Of a DNA stretch of 26,222 nucleotides, positions 4,767 to 21,491 are shown in pieces (the first letter of the stretch is position 1; each line of letters opens with the position of its first letter). The notes beneath the pieces were generated by a model, which worked only from the letters and a program-made list of their open reading frames with translations, was not told the DNA's origin and made no database searches. Source of the DNA: a virus; IMG/VR virus record IMGVR_UViG_3300027608_000131, positions 1 to 26,222 of that record; one strand, 5' to 3'. The position numbers were made by a program, and so were the translations under genes.

Positions 4767-5141
4767 ATGAAACCAATTATCCATGCAATAGGAGTTTCTT
4801 GTAATCATTTACATGTTAAAGAAACTTTTGATTTAAGACAAGTTACTTGTAAAGCATGTAAACATTTTTTAATAACAGATAAGGAGATTGAAAAAAAGTT
4901 TTATGAAAATGAAGCTGCAGTAAAAAAAGAAACTGAACAAAAAATGGCAAATTTAACTAATAGTATTATTATTAGAAAAAAAACTCCAGATGAAATAGTT
5001 TTTATTACTCCTAACTGTTCAAAATGTTTAATACCTATGATTGTTAGAACTAATAAACACACTAATAGATTTTTCTATGGTTGTGTAAAGTTTCCGCAAT
5101 GTAAACAAACAGAAAAATTTATTAAAATAATAAGTAAATGA
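4767..5141 (+). CDS. Zinc-finger protein with topoisomerase-type C4 finger, 124 aa
   Basis: I place the start at ATG 4767, five bases after the HNH stop; the frame is open further upstream (4701) inside the HNH gene. The N-terminal part has a possible zinc site (Cys12, His14/His16, Cys28, Cys31). The C-terminal part matches the zf-C4 repeat found at the end of type IA topoisomerases: C84-x2-C87..PM..R, then FFYGC106..FPQC112K. That repeat binds single-stranded DNA. The stop overlaps the helicase start by ATGA, suggesting the two act together. No topoisomerase catalytic domain is present. Confidence 0.72.
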   Translation: MKPIIHAIGVSCNHLHVKETFDLRQVTCKACKHFLITDKEIEKKFYENEAAVKKETEQKMANLTNSIIIRKKTPDEIVFITPNCSKCLIPMIVRTNKHTNRFFYGCVKFPQCKQTEKFIKIISK

Positions 5142-6229
5142 ACAGAGAAGAAATACAAGCAGCAGCATTAAAAGCTACTGAAGGTAATCAAAAATGTTCT
5201 GTAGTATTAGGCACAGGGGTCGGTAAGACCCTTGTTGGCCTAAAACATATGGAACTTAATACTACACCTCTTATGAGGACATTAGTAGTTGCACCTAAAA
5301 AATCTATCTTCCAATCTTGGAAAGATGATGCAGAAACTTTTAACATGCAAGAACAATTAAGCAGGATTACATTTACAACTTATTTAAGTTTAAATAAACA
5401 TAACCCTGCTGACTTTGATGCTGTGTATTTAGATGAAGCTCATAGTTTATTAGATAGTCATAGAGGATTTTTGCAACTGTACAAAGGAAAGATACTTGGT
5501 CTTACTGGTACTCCACCAAAATATAAAGATTCTGAAAAAGGTAAACTAGTACAGGAGTTTTGTCCTGTAGTATATACTTTTAAAGCAGATGATGCTATAG
5601 AGAATGGAATACTTAATGATTACCAGATCATAGTACATGAATTAGAACTTAATACTGCAAAGAATTATGCTGTAGATATGAAAACTAAAAGTTTTATTAC
5701 CTCTGAGCAATTAAATTATAATTATTGGAGTAATAGAATTGATATAGGTTCAGGTCCTGCACATATTCTTAGAGTAATGAGAATGAAAGCCATGATGGAA
5801 TATACTAGCAAAGAAAAATATACTAAAATACTAATGAACAGTATTAATACTAAGTGTATTGTATTTGCTAATACTCAAGATCAAGCTGATAGATTGTGTA
5901 CTCACAGTTATCATAGTAATAATCCTAAATCTGAAGAAAATCTGGAAATGTTTAAAGAAGATACTATTGATAAACTTTCTACTGTTATGCAGTTAAATGA
6001 AGGAGTTAATATTGCTAATCTTAAACAAGGTATTATTATGCATGCATATGGTAATGAAAGAAAAGCTAGTCAGAGAATTGGAAGATTACTTAGATTAAAT
6101 CCAGATGATAAAGCTGTTGTACATATACTATGTTACATAGGGACAGTTGATGAGAAATGGTGTAAAGAAGCATTAGAAGGTTTTGATCAAAGTAAAATAC
6201 TTTGGAAAAACTATAATATTAGCTTATAA
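5138..6229 (+). CDS. Superfamily 2 DNA helicase
   Basis: The 363-aa protein has all main SF2 motifs: Walker A GTGVGKT (25-31), DEAH box (99-102), motif III GLTGTPP (near 123), and motif VI QRIGR (312-316). It is a compact helicase without large insertions and resembles the UvsW/SNF2-like helicases of crAss-like phages. It would use ATP to move on or remodel DNA, for example branch migration or replication restart. It is coupled by ATGA to the zinc-finger gene upstream, which may supply DNA binding. The start MNREEIQAAALKAT places a Q-motif-like segment just before Walker A. Confidence 0.88.
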   Translation: MNREEIQAAALKATEGNQKCSVVLGTGVGKTLVGLKHMELNTTPLMRTLVVAPKKSIFQSWKDDAETFNMQEQLSRITFTTYLSLNKHNPADFDAVYLDEAHSLLDSHRGFLQLYKGKILGLTGTPPKYKDSEKGKLVQEFCPVVYTFKADDAIENGILNDYQIIVHELELNTAKNYAVDMKTKSFITSEQLNYNYWSNRIDIGSGPAHILRVMRMKAMMEYTSKEKYTKILMNSINTKCIVFANTQDQADRLCTHSYHSNNPKSEENLEMFKEDTIDKLSTVMQLNEGVNIANLKQGIIMHAYGNERKASQRIGRLLRLNPDDKAVVHILCYIGTVDEKWCKEALEGFDQSKILWKNYNISL

Positions 6230-6245
6230 TTGATTATATTATATT

Positions 6246-6500
6246 ATGGAAATACCAGGACAATATAAAGTAGTTATGTATAATGATGATGTGCATGATT
6301 TCCCGTACATTATGGCTTGCTTAATGAGGTTTTGTACTTATGAACCTATACAAGCAGAACAATGTGCATTAATTGCACATACCAATGGTCAATGCAGTAT
6401 TAAGAGTGGGAATTGGGATGAAATGTTTGAATTAACACAAACTTTAATATCTTTGGACATTAAAGTAATGATAGAATCTTATGAAGGCAGTATGCATTGA
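6246..6500 (+). CDS. clpS: ClpS-like adaptor of the ClpAP protease
   Basis: The 84-aa protein spans the ClpS core. YKVVMYNDDVHDF (7-19) carries the NDD motif that binds the N-degron amino group. A helix with ACLMRFC follows. EQCALIAH at 38-45 supplies the equivalent of E. coli His66, and a G-x-C-x-x-x-xG stretch follows at 48-55. The pattern 'NDDV..F' and 'QAEQCALI.H..G.C..K.G' is close to the Bacteroidota ClpS type. The N-terminal extension that delivers substrate in E. coli ClpS is nearly absent (only about six residues). It would recognise proteins with bulky N-terminal residues and feed them to, or divert them from, the host ClpA/ClpP machine. ClpS in a phage is uncommon; transfer from a host is likely. 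Confidence 0.82.
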   Translation: MEIPGQYKVVMYNDDVHDFPYIMACLMRFCTYEPIQAEQCALIAHTNGQCSIKSGNWDEMFELTQTLISLDIKVMIESYEGSMH

Positions 6501-6756
6501 TAGTTCAAATAAACCAAAAAAAATACCAGATTCAGAATGGATAACTGAAGGCACTACATATACTATTACTAGAATAGTTAGAATGGGTCTTGAAAAAAAT
6601 AAGTATGGAGTTCTTCTTAAAGAAGTACAACTCTCATCTCAATCTTTTCCTTATGAATTATATGATGCTGCAAGATTCTTACCTTTAGATCTTTTAGCTA
6701 ATATGAAAGAAGAAGAAGAAGTCACAGTTAGAGAAGCTGACTTAGAATTAATTTAA
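6481..6756 (+). CDS. Conserved hypothetical protein, 91 aa, SH3/KOW-like
   Basis: It begins with AVCIDSSNKPKKIPDSEWITEGTTYTITRI, a pattern I recall from many short phage and prophage proteins of Bacteroidota, followed by a beta-rich body (YGVLLKEVQL, FPYELYDAARFLPL) and an acidic tail. The fold is probably a small beta barrel. The 20-base overlap with clpS implies coupled translation. The function is unknown; a role in nucleic-acid or protein binding is only a guess. Confidence 0.7.
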   Translation: MKAVCIDSSNKPKKIPDSEWITEGTTYTITRIVRMGLEKNKYGVLLKEVQLSSQSFPYELYDAARFLPLDLLANMKEEEEVTVREADLELI

Positions 6757-6768
6757 AAACTATAATGT

Positions 6769-7131
6769 ATGAGTAACTTGGAGTTAGTCCAAAAGTTCAT
6801 TGATAAATATGATCTAAAAGAAAAGTCTAGATATAGATATCAATTAGATAAGAGATACTTTTTATTTAATATACTTAAAAATGATGGTATGAGTGTTTCT
6901 TCAATAAGTAGAGTATTTGGATTAAAGCATACTACTGTAATGAATGGTATTAAAAATCATAAACTGTGGACTAATAATGGTGATTCTTTTTATTTAAATA
7001 ATATTAAAGAATTAAAAGAAGAATTTGTACATATAAATTTTTACAAAACACTAAAAGAAGTAGTTTTAGAATGTAGTTCATTAGAAGAGTTAGAAAAAAT
7101 TAAACAACAGATACTTTTAAAATATTATTAA
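6769..7131 (+). CDS. DnaA domain IV-like helix-turn-helix protein, 120 aa
   Basis: Residues about 25-66 (RYQLDKRYFLFNILKNDG, then SVSSISRVFGLKHTTVMNGI) match the DNA-binding domain IV of DnaA, including the hydrophobic helix, the turn and the H-T-T-V recognition stretch. There is no AAA+ ATPase domain. The C-terminal third is helical and charged. It could bind a phage origin or act as a transcription regulator, perhaps imitating DnaA-box recognition. It lies between replication-type genes and small accessory genes. Confidence 0.7.
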   Translation: MSNLELVQKFIDKYDLKEKSRYRYQLDKRYFLFNILKNDGMSVSSISRVFGLKHTTVMNGIKNHKLWTNNGDSFYLNNIKELKEEFVHINFYKTLKEVVLECSSLEELEKIKQQILLKYY

Positions 7132-8025: not shown

Positions 8026-8036
8026 TTTTGATAAAG

Positions 8037-8063
8037 GATAAGTGGTAAAAATTACCCCATATC
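8037..8063 (+). other. Imperfect hairpin in the leader of the 88-aa membrane gene
   Basis: GATAAGTGGTAA and TTACCCCATATC pair at ten of twelve positions around an AAA loop. It directly follows the nested inverted repeats, and no T-tract follows, so it is more likely a leader structure than a terminator. Confidence 0.35.
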
Positions 8064-8080
8064 TTAAATAAAAATGATAA

Positions 8081-8122
8081 AACTGAGTGCAAATTAAGTA
8101 AAATGAGCGCAAAGTATGAAAA
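8081..8122 (+). repeat. Two imperfect tandem 20-base repeats
   Basis: AACTGAGTGCAAATTAAGTA and AAATGAGCGCAAAGTATGAA follow each other at a 20-base period and share A-x-TGAG-x-GCAAA. They lie upstream of the 88-aa membrane protein gene. Two helical turns of spacing would suit a repressor or activator binding on one DNA face. The repeat is seen; the role is a guess. Confidence 0.35.
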
Positions 8123-8157
8123 TTAAGTATTAATCACCACAATTAACTAAAAATAAC

Positions 8158-8424
8158 ATGAAAGAAGTAAAATGGTGGAAATTATTAATTGTATTTTTTT
8201 CCGCAATAGTTTTAGAAGCAAATAGTATTGCAGGTTTTAGATTTCTAATGGATGAGCACTGGATGGGTATGGTTATGATGGCAGGAATTAACCCTTTTTT
8301 ATGCTTACCAATGAACCACTATACTATTGAAGTTAAGACATTCAAGGGAAGAGCAATTATTGCATTAGCATTTAGCATTGGATTTATAGTAGGAATATTA
8401 ACAATTAGACCTTTTTTTATATGA
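8158..8424 (+). CDS. Small integral membrane protein, 88 aa
   Basis: Three hydrophobic spans are visible (about residues 8-30, 36-54 and 66-85). The N-terminus is MKEVKWWK, and a conserved-looking NHYTIEVKTFKGR stretch lies between spans two and three. The stop overlaps the next gene start by ATGA. No family is recognised. It is preceded by the long structured leader at 7965-8157, so its expression may be separately controlled. Confidence 0.65.
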   Translation: MKEVKWWKLLIVFFSAIVLEANSIAGFRFLMDEHWMGMVMMAGINPFLCLPMNHYTIEVKTFKGRAIIALAFSIGFIVGILTIRPFFI

Positions 8425-8600
8425 AAGAAACAGCAGTAGAATGGCTTGAAAAAATACGTCAAGGTCAGAAAGGACAACCATTTGATGATTATGAGTGGGA
8501 AATAGCATTTAATCATGCCAAAGAAATGGAGAAGGAGCAAATGCACGCAGAATATATGCAAGGGTGGAAGGATGGATTAACTAAACAACAAGAACAATGA
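8421..8600 (+). CDS. Small conserved protein, 59 aa
   Basis: The frame begins at the ATGA overlap and ends at TGA 8598-8600, overlapping the next start. The product reads MKETAVEWLEKIRQGQ, then AFNHAKEMEKEQMHAEYMQGWKDG. Short proteins starting 'M+xTAVEWL' and containing 'A+EMEKEQ' are widespread in Bacteroidota phages and prophages. The role is unknown; an alpha-helical dimer is likely. Confidence 0.65.
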   Translation: MKETAVEWLEKIRQGQKGQPFDDYEWEIAFNHAKEMEKEQMHAEYMQGWKDGLTKQQEQ

Positions 8601-8821
8601 GTGATATAACAGTATGTCCAGGCACAGATTGTCCTGTAAAAGAAAAGTGTTACAGATTTACAGCACCTAAGAATGAATTATGGCAAAGTTACTTTATGGA
8701 AATACCTGGTAAAATAGAAGATGACAAGTTTATTTGTGATATGTACTGGGGTGAAAAAGCAGAAGGTATATGGAATCAACTAAAAGATATAACAAATGGG
8801 GAAGATAATACTGGAGTTTAA
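8597..8821 (+). CDS. Cysteine-rich putative zinc-binding protein, 74 aa
   Basis: Five cysteines occur (7, 12, 18, 47 in the pattern C-x4-C-x5-C..C, plus a conserved-looking CYRFTAP). QSYFMEIPGK precedes the last, followed by CDMYWGE. Such 'C..DC..K..CYR..A...QSYF..P....C' proteins are recurrent in large phages, and a small zinc-binding or structural-cysteine domain is likely. Its function is unknown. It overlaps both neighbours (ATGA upstream, 26 bases downstream). Confidence 0.65.
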   Translation: MSDITVCPGTDCPVKEKCYRFTAPKNELWQSYFMEIPGKIEDDKFICDMYWGEKAEGIWNQLKDITNGEDNTGV

Positions 8822-9035
8822 CTCTGAAGAAGAAGGTAATGATGCTAGATTAGCATTAGATGGATATAAATGGAAGCTTGCTATGTGGGATCTTGACCAA
8901 AAGTTAAGGAGTGCTACAAAGTATGGTGTCATTGATAATACAAAAGCTACACCAGAAGAACAAGATATGGCTGATAAGGTTCGGGAATTTATAAGAGATA
9001 TTTTAAATGATTACAATTTAAACTTAGAAGAATGA
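8796..9035 (+). CDS. Conserved phage hypothetical protein, 79 aa
   Basis: It begins MGKIILEFNSEEEGNDARLAL, then GYKWKLAMWDLDQKLRSATKYG and ends NDYNLNLEE. This exact style (acidic helix, 'YKWK.AMWDLDQ.LR..TKYG', 'R....NDYNLN') is common to short proteins in many tailed phages and prophages, always without known function. It overlaps the upstream gene by 26 bases and the downstream by ATGA, so it is part of a coupled string. Confidence 0.7.
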   Translation: MGKIILEFNSEEEGNDARLALDGYKWKLAMWDLDQKLRSATKYGVIDNTKATPEEQDMADKVREFIRDILNDYNLNLEE

Positions 9036-18737: not shown

Positions 18738-19132
18738 ATTTTAACAAAGAAGAAACAAGGAATATATTAAACATGTTACTCTCTAAAGATAAAGAAAATT
18801 CTATAATAGCTTTATCATGTCTTAATAACTTTAGTAAGAAAGAACATTTGGGTGAGCTATTGGTATTATATCAATTTGGTAGAACACCAGCAGAAGTATG
18901 GAAAGAAAATTGTAAAAAAGGTTTTAAATATATAAAAAATGTTTTACCTTTTAAAAGTTCAGACTATAGACTACCTTCCTCTAAAGTATTTAATGAGTTA
19001 GTAAACAATAAATGTAGTAAAGAATCAGTAGAACTATATCTAGAGTTATTTACTAATGATTTTTCTAATCATTTGTATGGAATGGGATATCCAACAGATA
19101 AACTTGATATACAAATTAAAATAAAAGAATAA
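18734..19132 (+). CDS. Hypothetical protein, 132 aa
   Basis: It is helical and leucine-rich, with NKEETRNILNMLLSKDKENSIIALSCLNNF, then LGELLVLYQFGRTPAEVWKENCKKGF and a C-terminal YGMGYPTDKLDIQIKIKE. The first part looks like an armadillo/HEAT-like helical repeat. It is coupled upstream by ATGA and shares its last base with the VWA metallopeptidase start, so it may be a partner of the MoxR/VWA pair. No family is recognised. Confidence 0.65.
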   Translation: MNFNKEETRNILNMLLSKDKENSIIALSCLNNFSKKEHLGELLVLYQFGRTPAEVWKENCKKGFKYIKNVLPFKSSDYRLPSSKVFNELVNNKCSKESVELYLELFTNDFSNHLYGMGYPTDKLDIQIKIKE

Positions 19133-20310
19133 TGGACAAAGCACTTAGTCTTAGTAAGATAGCAAAAGAATTAATGTTAATAGAGCCCTATTATGGGTTC
19201 TTTTTAATTATGTTGAACAAAACATGGAGAAAAGATTTACCCACAGCAGGAGTAAGTAAGAATGGTATTAATTACCAGTTAGCAATAAATGAAGAGTTTT
19301 GGACAAGTCTAAGTGAAGAACATCAACTTGGATTGTTAAAACATGAATTGTTGCATATAGCTTTTGGTCACCTAACAAGTTTTGGTTCATTTAGTGATAA
19401 AAAACTAGCTAATGTGGCTATGGATATGGAAATCAATCAATATATTGATACTGATTGGTTACCTAAAGGTGGTATCATGATAGAAGATTATGAAGATCTT
19501 GATCTTGATGAAAAAGCAGGTTGTAGATACTATTATAAGAAACTACAAGAGCTTAAACAAGAAAAGGATAAGAATGGTACTTGTGGTAATGAACCTATGG
19601 ATAAGTTACTAGATGATATAGAAAATGGGAATGTCCCTGATCATGGTACCTGGGAAGAGTTTGATGATCTTAGTGAAGCTGAGAAAAAGCTAATTGATAA
19701 ACAAATACAAAAAGTTCTATCAGATGCTAAAGAACAGACCATTAAGAAGAGAGGAAGAATCCCGGGAGAAATAGAAGGAGTAATTACTATTGAAGAAATA
19801 GTTGCACCTAAATTTGATTGGAGAGGATATATGAGAAGGTTTACTGGAATTAGTACAAAAGTATTTACTAAAAAGATAAGAAGAAAGGAGAATAGAAAGT
19901 TTCCTGAAAATCCTGGTCTTAAACTTAAGATGAAACAACATATGTTGTTAGGTGTAGATACTTCAGGTTCTGTAAGTGATTCTGAACTACAAGAGTTTAT
20001 GAGTGAAATAAATCATATTTATAAAGCAGGAGTAGATGTTACTATAATTCAATGTGATACTTCTATTAGATCTATTGAATCTTACAATGGTAAATTTGAA
20101 TTAAATGTATTAGGAAGAGGAGGAACAGAATTTGATCCTGTCTTAGAATATTATAATGAAAACCAAAAGAAATATACTAGTCTAGTATATTTTACTGATG
20201 GAGAGTGCTATACACGTGTAAAACCAAAAGGACATGTTCTTTGGGTTTTGTCAGAAAGATCAGAAATGAATGATGAGTTACCAGGAAAGGTAATTAAGTT
20301 AGAACTATAA
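19132..20310 (+). CDS. VWA domain-containing metallopeptidase-like protein
   Basis: The N-terminal part holds a zinc protease motif HELLH (71-75) with His80 nearby. The C-terminal part is a von Willebrand factor A domain with the MIDAS signature GVDTSGSVSD (Asp276, Ser278, Ser280) and a later RGGTEFDP. A basic linker (KKIRRKENRKF) joins them. This architecture is the predicted-metallopeptidase VWA family (DUF2201/COG3864). Together with the MoxR ATPase 12 bases downstream it should form a chaperone-like pair that remodels a protein target. Such pairs occur in crAss-like phages; the target is unknown. Confidence 0.87.
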   Translation: MDKALSLSKIAKELMLIEPYYGFFLIMLNKTWRKDLPTAGVSKNGINYQLAINEEFWTSLSEEHQLGLLKHELLHIAFGHLTSFGSFSDKKLANVAMDMEINQYIDTDWLPKGGIMIEDYEDLDLDEKAGCRYYYKKLQELKQEKDKNGTCGNEPMDKLLDDIENGNVPDHGTWEEFDDLSEAEKKLIDKQIQKVLSDAKEQTIKKRGRIPGEIEGVITIEEIVAPKFDWRGYMRRFTGISTKVFTKKIRRKENRKFPENPGLKLKMKQHMLLGVDTSGSVSDSELQEFMSEINHIYKAGVDVTIIQCDTSIRSIESYNGKFELNVLGRGGTEFDPVLEYYNENQKKYTSLVYFTDGECYTRVKPKGHVLWVLSERSEMNDELPGKVIKLEL

Positions 20311-20321
20311 AAATAAAAAGT

Positions 20322-21491
20322 ATGAATCAAGTACAATTAAATGTAGAAGAATTAAAAAGTTTTATAAAGCATATGGTTGGTAATAACCAACATATTCAAG
20401 CTGAAGGTAAAGTTCCTGTAGCAATTAATATTGAGGGTGATGCTGGTCTTGGTAAAACTTCTGCTATTATGCAGTTAGGAAAAGAAATGCATATGCAAGT
20501 TGTAAAGCTTAATTTATCTCAGTTAGAAGAATTAGGTGATCTAGTAGGTTTTCCTGTAAAAGAATTTGAAATAACTAATGCTGAAGGTAATTCTACATGG
20601 ATTAATGAATTTCAGATAGATGCAGCTATGAAGAAAGGATACAAAGTTGGAGCTAAGAGAATGTCTCATGCTGCACCTGAATGGATTCAAGGTAAAGGTG
20701 AGGGTGGATTCTTAGTATTAGATGACTACACTAGAGCTGATCACAGATTTATGCAAGCAACTATGGAGATCTTAGATAGACAAGAATATGTTTCTTGGAA
20801 ATTACCTAAGAACTGGCATGTTATCTTAACTACTAATCCAGATAATGGAGACTATAATGTTACTAGTTTGGATATTGCTCAGAAGACTAGATTTATCTCT
20901 GTTGAGTTAAAGTATGATGTTAATGTATGGTCTAAGTGGGCTGAGACTGCAAGGATAGATGGTAGATGTATTAACTTTATGTTGATGAATCCTGAACTTG
21001 TGACTCAAAAGGTTAATCCAAGAGCTATTACTACTTTCTTCAATGCTATTAGTTCCATAGAAAAGTTTGAGGCTGACCTGCCTCTAATTCAAATGATTGG
21101 TGAAGGATCTGTTGGAGCAGATTTTAGTTCTATGTTTACTATGTTTATTAATAATAAACTAGACAGAATAATTTCTCCGCAAGACATCTTAACTAAAGAT
21201 GAAGTATATGTAATGGGAGCTTTGACAAGTGCAGTTGGTAAAGATGATGACTTTAGAGCAGATATATCTAGCGTAATTGCAACAAGATTAATAAACTATT
21301 CATTGCTTCTTTCTGAAAGAGGACCAGTTCCAGCAGATATTACTGATAGATTAGCCAAGCTTACTACTGAATGTGATGCATTTACTAATGATCTTAGATA
21401 TTACATGATTAAAGAAATAGTAAATGGAAACAAAGTTAAATTTGCTAAACTAATGCAGAATACCAAGGTGGTGAAGATGGCTATCAGCTAA
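20322..21491 (+). CDS. MoxR-like AAA+ ATPase
   Basis: Walker A GDAGLGKT (39-46) is followed by Walker B FLVLDD (Asp134/Asp135), a D-R-x-M-Q segment with MEILDRQEY (the MoxR lid region), and the sensor 1 strand HVILTTNPDNGDY (Asn172). DIAQKTRFI gives the arginine finger-type stretch. The 389-aa length fits MoxR proteins. It would act with the upstream VWA protein, as in MoxR/CoxE-type systems. A terminator-like hairpin (21543-21574) ends this operon. Confidence 0.88.
   Translation: MNQVQLNVEELKSFIKHMVGNNQHIQAEGKVPVAINIEGDAGLGKTSAIMQLGKEMHMQVVKLNLSQLEELGDLVGFPVKEFEITNAEGNSTWINEFQIDAAMKKGYKVGAKRMSHAAPEWIQGKGEGGFLVLDDYTRADHRFMQATMEILDRQEYVSWKLPKNWHVILTTNPDNGDYNVTSLDIAQKTRFISVELKYDVNVWSKWAETARIDGRCINFMLMNPELVTQKVNPRAITTFFNAISSIEKFEADLPLIQMIGEGSVGADFSSMFTMFINNKLDRIISPQDILTKDEVYVMGALTSAVGKDDDFRADISSVIATRLINYSLLLSERGPVPADITDRLAKLTTECDAFTNDLRYYMIKEIVNGNKVKFAKLMQNTKVVKMAIS

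Follow-up and report, generated by a model that had tools for sequence, protein, structure and literature searches.

Our analysis indicated that the window, an IMG/VR virus record of 26,222 bases, carries at positions 6246-6500 (+ strand, ATG start) a gene whose 84-residue product is, from its sequence and predicted fold, almost certainly ClpS, and that this protein belongs to a conserved phage clade that seems to keep the grip on N-terminal degrons without the N-terminal arm. Phage ClpS has already been reported from jumbo phages; what is new here is a conserved clade with an apparent grip and without the arm. The sequence-only reading had named the product ClpS, and this was borne out by Pfam, in which ClpS (PF02617) matched at 56.7 bits (cut-off, 23; E = 2e-15) and was the sole family listed at E ≤ 10. 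Eight NCBIfam ClpS models were also listed, at 13.4 to 25.2 bits (best E, 1.2e-5) with cut-offs of 86 to 158; membership of the ClpS family holds, but as these scores lie below all eight equivalog cut-offs, an equivalent role is not implied. The AlphaFold model, for which 43 phage and 30 genome sequences, part of those available, were aligned as input, had a mean pLDDT of 90.9, with the final residues weak. A structural check of this kind had been suggested for the gene, and the predicted model indeed has the ClpS fold: 36 of the 38 PDB chains matched in Foldseek at E ≤ 0.001 came from ClpS entries, and the other two (4o2x) are, by PDB name, a malarial protein with a ClpS part. The top matches were the ClpS proteins of E. 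coli, Caulobacter, and Mycolicibacterium (TM-score by query length, 0.75 to 0.85). A chance match to the NDD motif is ruled out by the Pfam, fold, and clade evidence. Designed TPR proteins that outranked ClpS were dropped, since they owed their rank to the summing of numerous repeats that each scored no more than about 3 bits, and TREX1 and other matches at E > 1 were likewise set aside. Scans for tRNAs and Rfam families gave no lead.

The near absence of an N-terminal extension, also noted in the sequence-only reading, proved correct. Only 12 residues precede the Asn of the pocket, and an in-frame TGA (6231-6233, +), four codons 5′ of the ATG, closes the frame, so that there is neither a hidden extension nor room for one. 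By alignment, the protein starts at about residue 22 of E. coli ClpS, in which a passage of PMC12493166 assigns residues 1-25 to the extension and 26-106 to the core. The disordered N-terminal extension that is a trait of delivering ClpS adaptors is thus lacking in the window protein. Among 153 phage clpS loci, a count that includes overlapping contigs and corresponds to 89 distinct stretches, the Asn was preceded, by nearest ATG, by 12 residues in 147 and by 11 in six. The frame was closed no more than 20 residues ahead of the Asn in 70 of the 153, and an in-frame ATG at least 20 residues ahead occurred in seven, lying 41 residues ahead in three of them. A misread start is ruled out by the upstream TGA together with the same start across the clade. 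Bacteroidota chromosomal ClpS differs from the phage clade in this respect, as an in-frame ATG lies at least 23 residues ahead of the Asn in 79 of 80 genome copies (the remaining one is without an ATG), and in E. coli ClpS 33 residues precede the Asn. According to a passage of PMC9663308, the pore loops of E. coli ClpA bind the ClpS extension, which enters the ClpA channel, and barring its entry inhibits ClpS-assisted degradation.

The pocket residues are largely retained. As the sequence-only reading had claimed, N13-D14-D15 (6282-6290, +) aligns with the alpha-amino pocket of E. coli ClpS (N34-D35-D36) and His45 (6378-6380, +) with H66, and the pocket Asn, Asp, and His are all three present in the window protein. 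Asn34 and Asp35 are conserved without exception, in all 84 phage copies and all 80 genome copies. The gate residue M40 of E. coli corresponds to F19 (6300-6302, +); the residue here is aromatic (F or Y) in all 80 genome copies and in all but three of the 84 phage copies. The phage clade shares with Bacteroidota chromosomal ClpS the Asn-Asp pocket, the gate of F or Y, a QAEQC motif, and the Cys pattern, and it resembles E. coli ClpS in its fold and pocket residues, whereas the E. coli gate is Met. The H66 place was His in all 80 genome copies but in only 70 of the 84 phage copies (Asp in 12 and Asn in two), with at least six steps of change on the tree. One such change separates the closely related ClpS proteins of L019 (7095-7346) and L020 (6195-6446), which differ at three of 84 residues, including Asp45 versus His45; over their first 74 codons, this His/Asp exchange is the one amino-acid change, alongside 11 synonymous changes.

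Two further regions distinguish phage from genome copies. In helix 1, P20, A24, and R28 (6303-6329, +) correspond to E. coli places 41, 45, and 49. Place 41 is acidic (D or E) in 77 of 80 genome copies, whereas 53 of 84 phage copies have L, P, or A there; at place 45, D or E (55 of 80 genome copies) gave way to Ala (82 of 84 phage copies), and at place 49, E or D (57 of 80) to R or K (79 of 84). In helix 3, E59 and F61 (6420-6428, +) occupy the places of E. coli E82 and K84, which are reported contacts with the ClpA N-domain; both residues bridge to ClpA according to a passage of PMC12493166. The window protein keeps the acidic residue and has Phe at the Lys84 place. Across the clade, the E82 place was E or D in 70 of 84 phage copies, and at the Lys84 place 70 of 84 carry F, L, or Y; of the 80 genome copies, 38 have Lys there. 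A conserved YE..MH at the C-terminus was rejected as a ClpS motif, since it overlaps the start of the next gene and its conservation is at least partly due to that gene starting there in another frame.

The position of the gene is also conserved. Directly upstream lies a superfamily 2 helicase (ResIII and Helicase_C; 5138-6229, +), and downstream a gene for a 91-residue protein, g91 (6481-6756, +). The run of overlapping genes described in the sequence-only reading holds on the downstream side, where clpS overlaps the start of g91 by 20 nt, and fails on the upstream side, where clpS begins 16 nt after the helicase stop. (In E. coli, the gene next to clpS is clpA.) The window helicase had 344 relatives in IMG/VR, of which 80 were kept; clpS was found in 76 of these 80 loci, with its ATG 2 to 29 bases past the helicase stop. 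The four helicase loci without clpS are L016, in which the contig ends inside the helicase, and L047, L048, and L081, in which clpS and g91 are both absent and two of which are nearly identical. Across 157 partly overlapping loci, helicase, clpS, and g91 occurred together in 149, the helicase alone in four, and one locus lacked g91 at a contig end, while three begin after the helicase; 73 of the loci were found by ClpS and are for this reason uninformative on clpS absence. Accordingly, g91 accompanied clpS in 152 of 153 clpS loci, the exception being the contig end. An ATG stood at the g91 start position in 138 of these 153, and the overlap was 20 nt by nearest ATG in 124 of the 144 loci measured.

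The g91 product gave no match in Pfam, PHROG, or NCBIfam, none in the phage collection at E ≤ 0.1, and weak SH3 matches in the fold search (best E, 0.35); its predicted model has a small beta fold with a C-terminal helix. Its tail ends in [DE]L[DE]L[IV] in most rows shown, which we take to resemble sliding-clamp binding peptides. For the suggestion in the sequence-only reading that clpS may be made early, a promoter scan gave no lead, with 20 sites found where shuffled sequence averaged 25.8.

To place the phage copies among host ClpS, as had been suggested for this gene, a tree was built from 168 rows and 74 columns, comprising 84 phage copies, 80 Bacteroidota-type genome copies, two huge-phage copies, and two outgroup rows; MT835505 (25% identity) served as an outgroup row only. 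The 84 distinct phage copies formed one clade apart from the 80 genome copies, with branch support of 99/99, and all 200 bootstrap trees recovered it. Both huge-phage copies fell outside this clade, one of them among the genome copies, and the tree, a short one, gave no nearest host for phage ClpS. The genome set was collected by scanning with a pattern derived from the aligned phage copies (80 of 181 confirmed copies kept), and it can therefore find Bacteroidota-type ClpS only. One of the 80 is labelled Alphaproteobacteria (L086); its ClpS is almost identical to that of the Bacteroidales L085, and it is probably a mislabelled bin. The sequence-only reading had proposed capture from a host of Bacteroidota type. 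The type was upheld, while a recent capture is ruled out by the single clade and the constant place behind the helicase. The best explanation of the sequence data is that the phage gene carries a ClpS core of Bacteroidota type, acquired long ago and since retained in nearly every member of a crAss-related clade of phages. In 21 hand-picked, partly overlapping pairs, dN/dS was between 0.016 and 0.427 throughout, showing purifying selection on phage ClpS in the pairs tested. ClpS and helicase distances were modestly correlated (Mantel r = 0.34; 0 of 999 permutations).

We provisionally call the phage clade crAss-related, from the matches of the window helicase and from those of a relative, G005 (116,688 bases), in which terminase, portal, and capsid genes could be read, the window itself being without such genes. 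The terminase, portal, and major head protein of G005 match PHROG head and packaging families. Its terminase matched 125 phage records, and the best 20 of these 125, at 24 to 27% identity, were mostly crAss-like and included cr1_1, placed in Crassvirales by its record. Its capsid matched nine records, namely Leptolyngbya phage Lbo-JY46 (27.9% identity over 99%), seven Cellulophaga phage records, and one faecal contig. The window helicase matched 77 phage records, including 29 Flavobacterium and 29 Bacteroides phages. These relatives, like the type of ClpS, point to a probable host among the Bacteroidota. Thirteen long relatives (89 to 123 kb) each had one ClpS match, which is no evidence for the prevalence of the gene because they were picked from clpS-bearing loci. 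In the viral structure library (BFVD), the gut crAss phages cr1_1, cr10_1, cr50_1, and cr126_1 have proteins that gave weak ClpS/bL12-like fold matches (E, 0.012 to 0.22; identity, 7 to 14%).

The sequence-only reading had assumed ClpAP as the partner, which is doubtful in such a host. Clp_N matches occurred in all 10 ClpS-bearing Bacteroidota-type genomes searched, and the listed frames were 844 to 889 residues long, with one of 449; none is near the 758 residues of E. coli ClpA. The six best Clp_N loci were read and all begin in a manner that we take to be like ClpC, and four of the six adjoin what is presumably a gyrase-like gene. The McsA model gave mid-chain matches in three partial Clp_N fragments (two at E < 0.002 and the third at 0.013), which we assume to fit the middle domain of ClpC. 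The host partner is thus probably ClpC-like. L/F-transferase was found in six of the 10 ClpS-bearing genomes. The 13 long relatives, which may be incomplete, gave no match to L/F-transferase, Clp_N, or ClpP, so that any effect on proteolysis would act via host enzymes.

Most of the other phage ClpS proteins that were read keep a longer stretch before the Asn. According to a passage of a 2021 survey (PMC7824862), ClpS is encoded by several jumbo phages and probably recruits targets to the ClpAP of the host. A search with E. coli ClpS matched 22 records of the phage collection, including PA5oct, MIJ3, GAP32, Atu_ph07, Kaldavass, Phosso, and Vibrio phage 2.275, of which seven, plus MT835505, were examined. 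MD-2021a was set aside as it looks like a bacterial chromosome (clpS beside clpA, argC, and ynfA). The ClpS proteins of PA5oct, Phosso, Atu_ph07, GAP32, and Kaldavass are also phage-borne but have at least 25 residues before the motif, and the neighbours of jumbo-phage clpS differ from those in the window (for example IF-3, S21, and a small heat shock protein). With five of six jumbo-phage ClpS proteins keeping at least 25 residues, phage ClpS does not in general lack the arm. The sixth, from Vibrio jumbo phage 2.275 (L257, 1492-1848), has 12 residues before the Asn and, by eye, Asp at the His66 place, a possible case of parallel trimming. Searches with the window and relative ClpS gave three good-scoring matches in uncultured huge phages of 630 to 640 kb (LR756502, LR756504, and LR745206; 34 to 40% identity to the window or a relative ClpS), two of which have 26 to 29 residues before the Asn and lie outside the present clade; Haloarcula and S-CAM1 matches were set aside at E values of 1 and 9, and these searches showed no close relative of the ClpS in the phage collection. 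BFVD held seven matches at E ≤ 0.001, some annotated as ClpS. The best structural matches, compared by length and fold, were two proteins of uncultured phages annotated as ClpS, A0A8D9CC24 (96 residues; 34% identity) and A0A6J5MDP1 (90 residues; 24% identity), longer than the window ClpS by 12 and 6 residues, respectively; a short-armed member may be among them. The main text of a 2020 huge-phage paper (PMC7162821) nowhere uses protease, proteolysis, or a word that starts with Clp, and among the open-access papers listed in literature searches none concerned the present clade.

Taken with the predicted model, the sequence comparisons lead us to suggest tentatively, at somewhat short of an even chance, that phage ClpS is a degron-gripping, non-delivering antagonist of host ClpS. 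The phage protein would still bind N-terminal degrons during infection, possibly together with the N-domain of host ClpC, and would hand over no substrates, being without the extension on which the unfoldase pulls. If the Bacteroidota pathway needs the ClpS extension, competition with host ClpS could leave the host N-degron pathway stalled or diverted. The sequence-only reading had raised both steering and blocking of the host protease, and the loss of the extension favours blocking. Some observations count against an antagonist. The extension of E. coli ClpS reportedly (Hou 2008 and Torres-Delgado 2020) also matters for inhibiting ssrA substrates, so the core alone might inhibit an unfoldase poorly, and the hydrophobic residue that replaces Lys84 in 70 of 84 copies means that ClpC may not be bound at all. 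The variable His66 place (14 of 84 phage copies) and the upstream in-frame ATGs (at least 20 residues before the Asn in seven of 153 loci) also speak against it, as does the longer stretch kept by most of the jumbo-phage copies. A natural dominant-negative ClpS, in which an armless sink for N-degrons shuts off the host pathway or shields proteins, is possible and rather doubtful; His-to-Asp swaps such as that between L019 and L020 would then tune which N-termini are held.

The kept pocket and the surface at places 41, 45, and 49, altered in most of the clade, are what would be expected of an adaptor with new specificity, which would pass chosen host or phage proteins to host ClpCP without a long extension. 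Such delivery was proposed for jumbo-phage ClpS and host ClpAP in PMC7824862, the sole literature passage found on the role of phage ClpS, and it is presumed there. Nevertheless, by nearest ATG all 153 loci start 11 to 12 residues ahead of the Asn, and this, with the changed Lys84 place, makes a delivering adaptor unlikely here. The changed Clp contact also fits a peptide-binding domain that has been repurposed, with no Clp link, to act with g91 or the helicase in a replication module, as does the joint behaviour of clpS and g91, which both lie behind a helicase, accompany each other in 152 of 153 clpS loci, and are jointly absent from three. Their pairing is explicable by shared position alone, however, and without binding of an N-terminus the invariant Asn-Asp and aromatic gate would have no ready explanation, so that we regard repurposing as unlikely. 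That the gene is a stray or decaying host gene without function, as its shortness and its absence from three of 80 helicase loci might suggest, is very improbable given its presence in 76 of 80 loci, the low dN/dS in all 21 pairs, and its single old clade. A clade with the grip and without the arm would be nature's version of E. coli ClpS stripped of its extension; it opens to test the idea that phages inhibit the N-degron pathway of bacteria instead of using it, and it gives a handle on the ClpS-ClpC pathway in Bacteroidota.

Further genes of the window and its relatives are recorded here as observations. Positions 6769-7131 of the window encode a small protein with a weak match to the DnaA C-terminal HTH (E = 2e-4, below the Pfam cut-off), and the gene at the same place in L001 looks different by eye. 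In L047, a relative without clpS and g91, positions 8030-8896 encode a CxxxCxxC protein that is radical-SAM-like by eye. At 19132-21491 of the window, again by eye, a metallopeptidase/VWA-like protein containing HELLH and DTSGS precedes a MoxR-like AAA protein.
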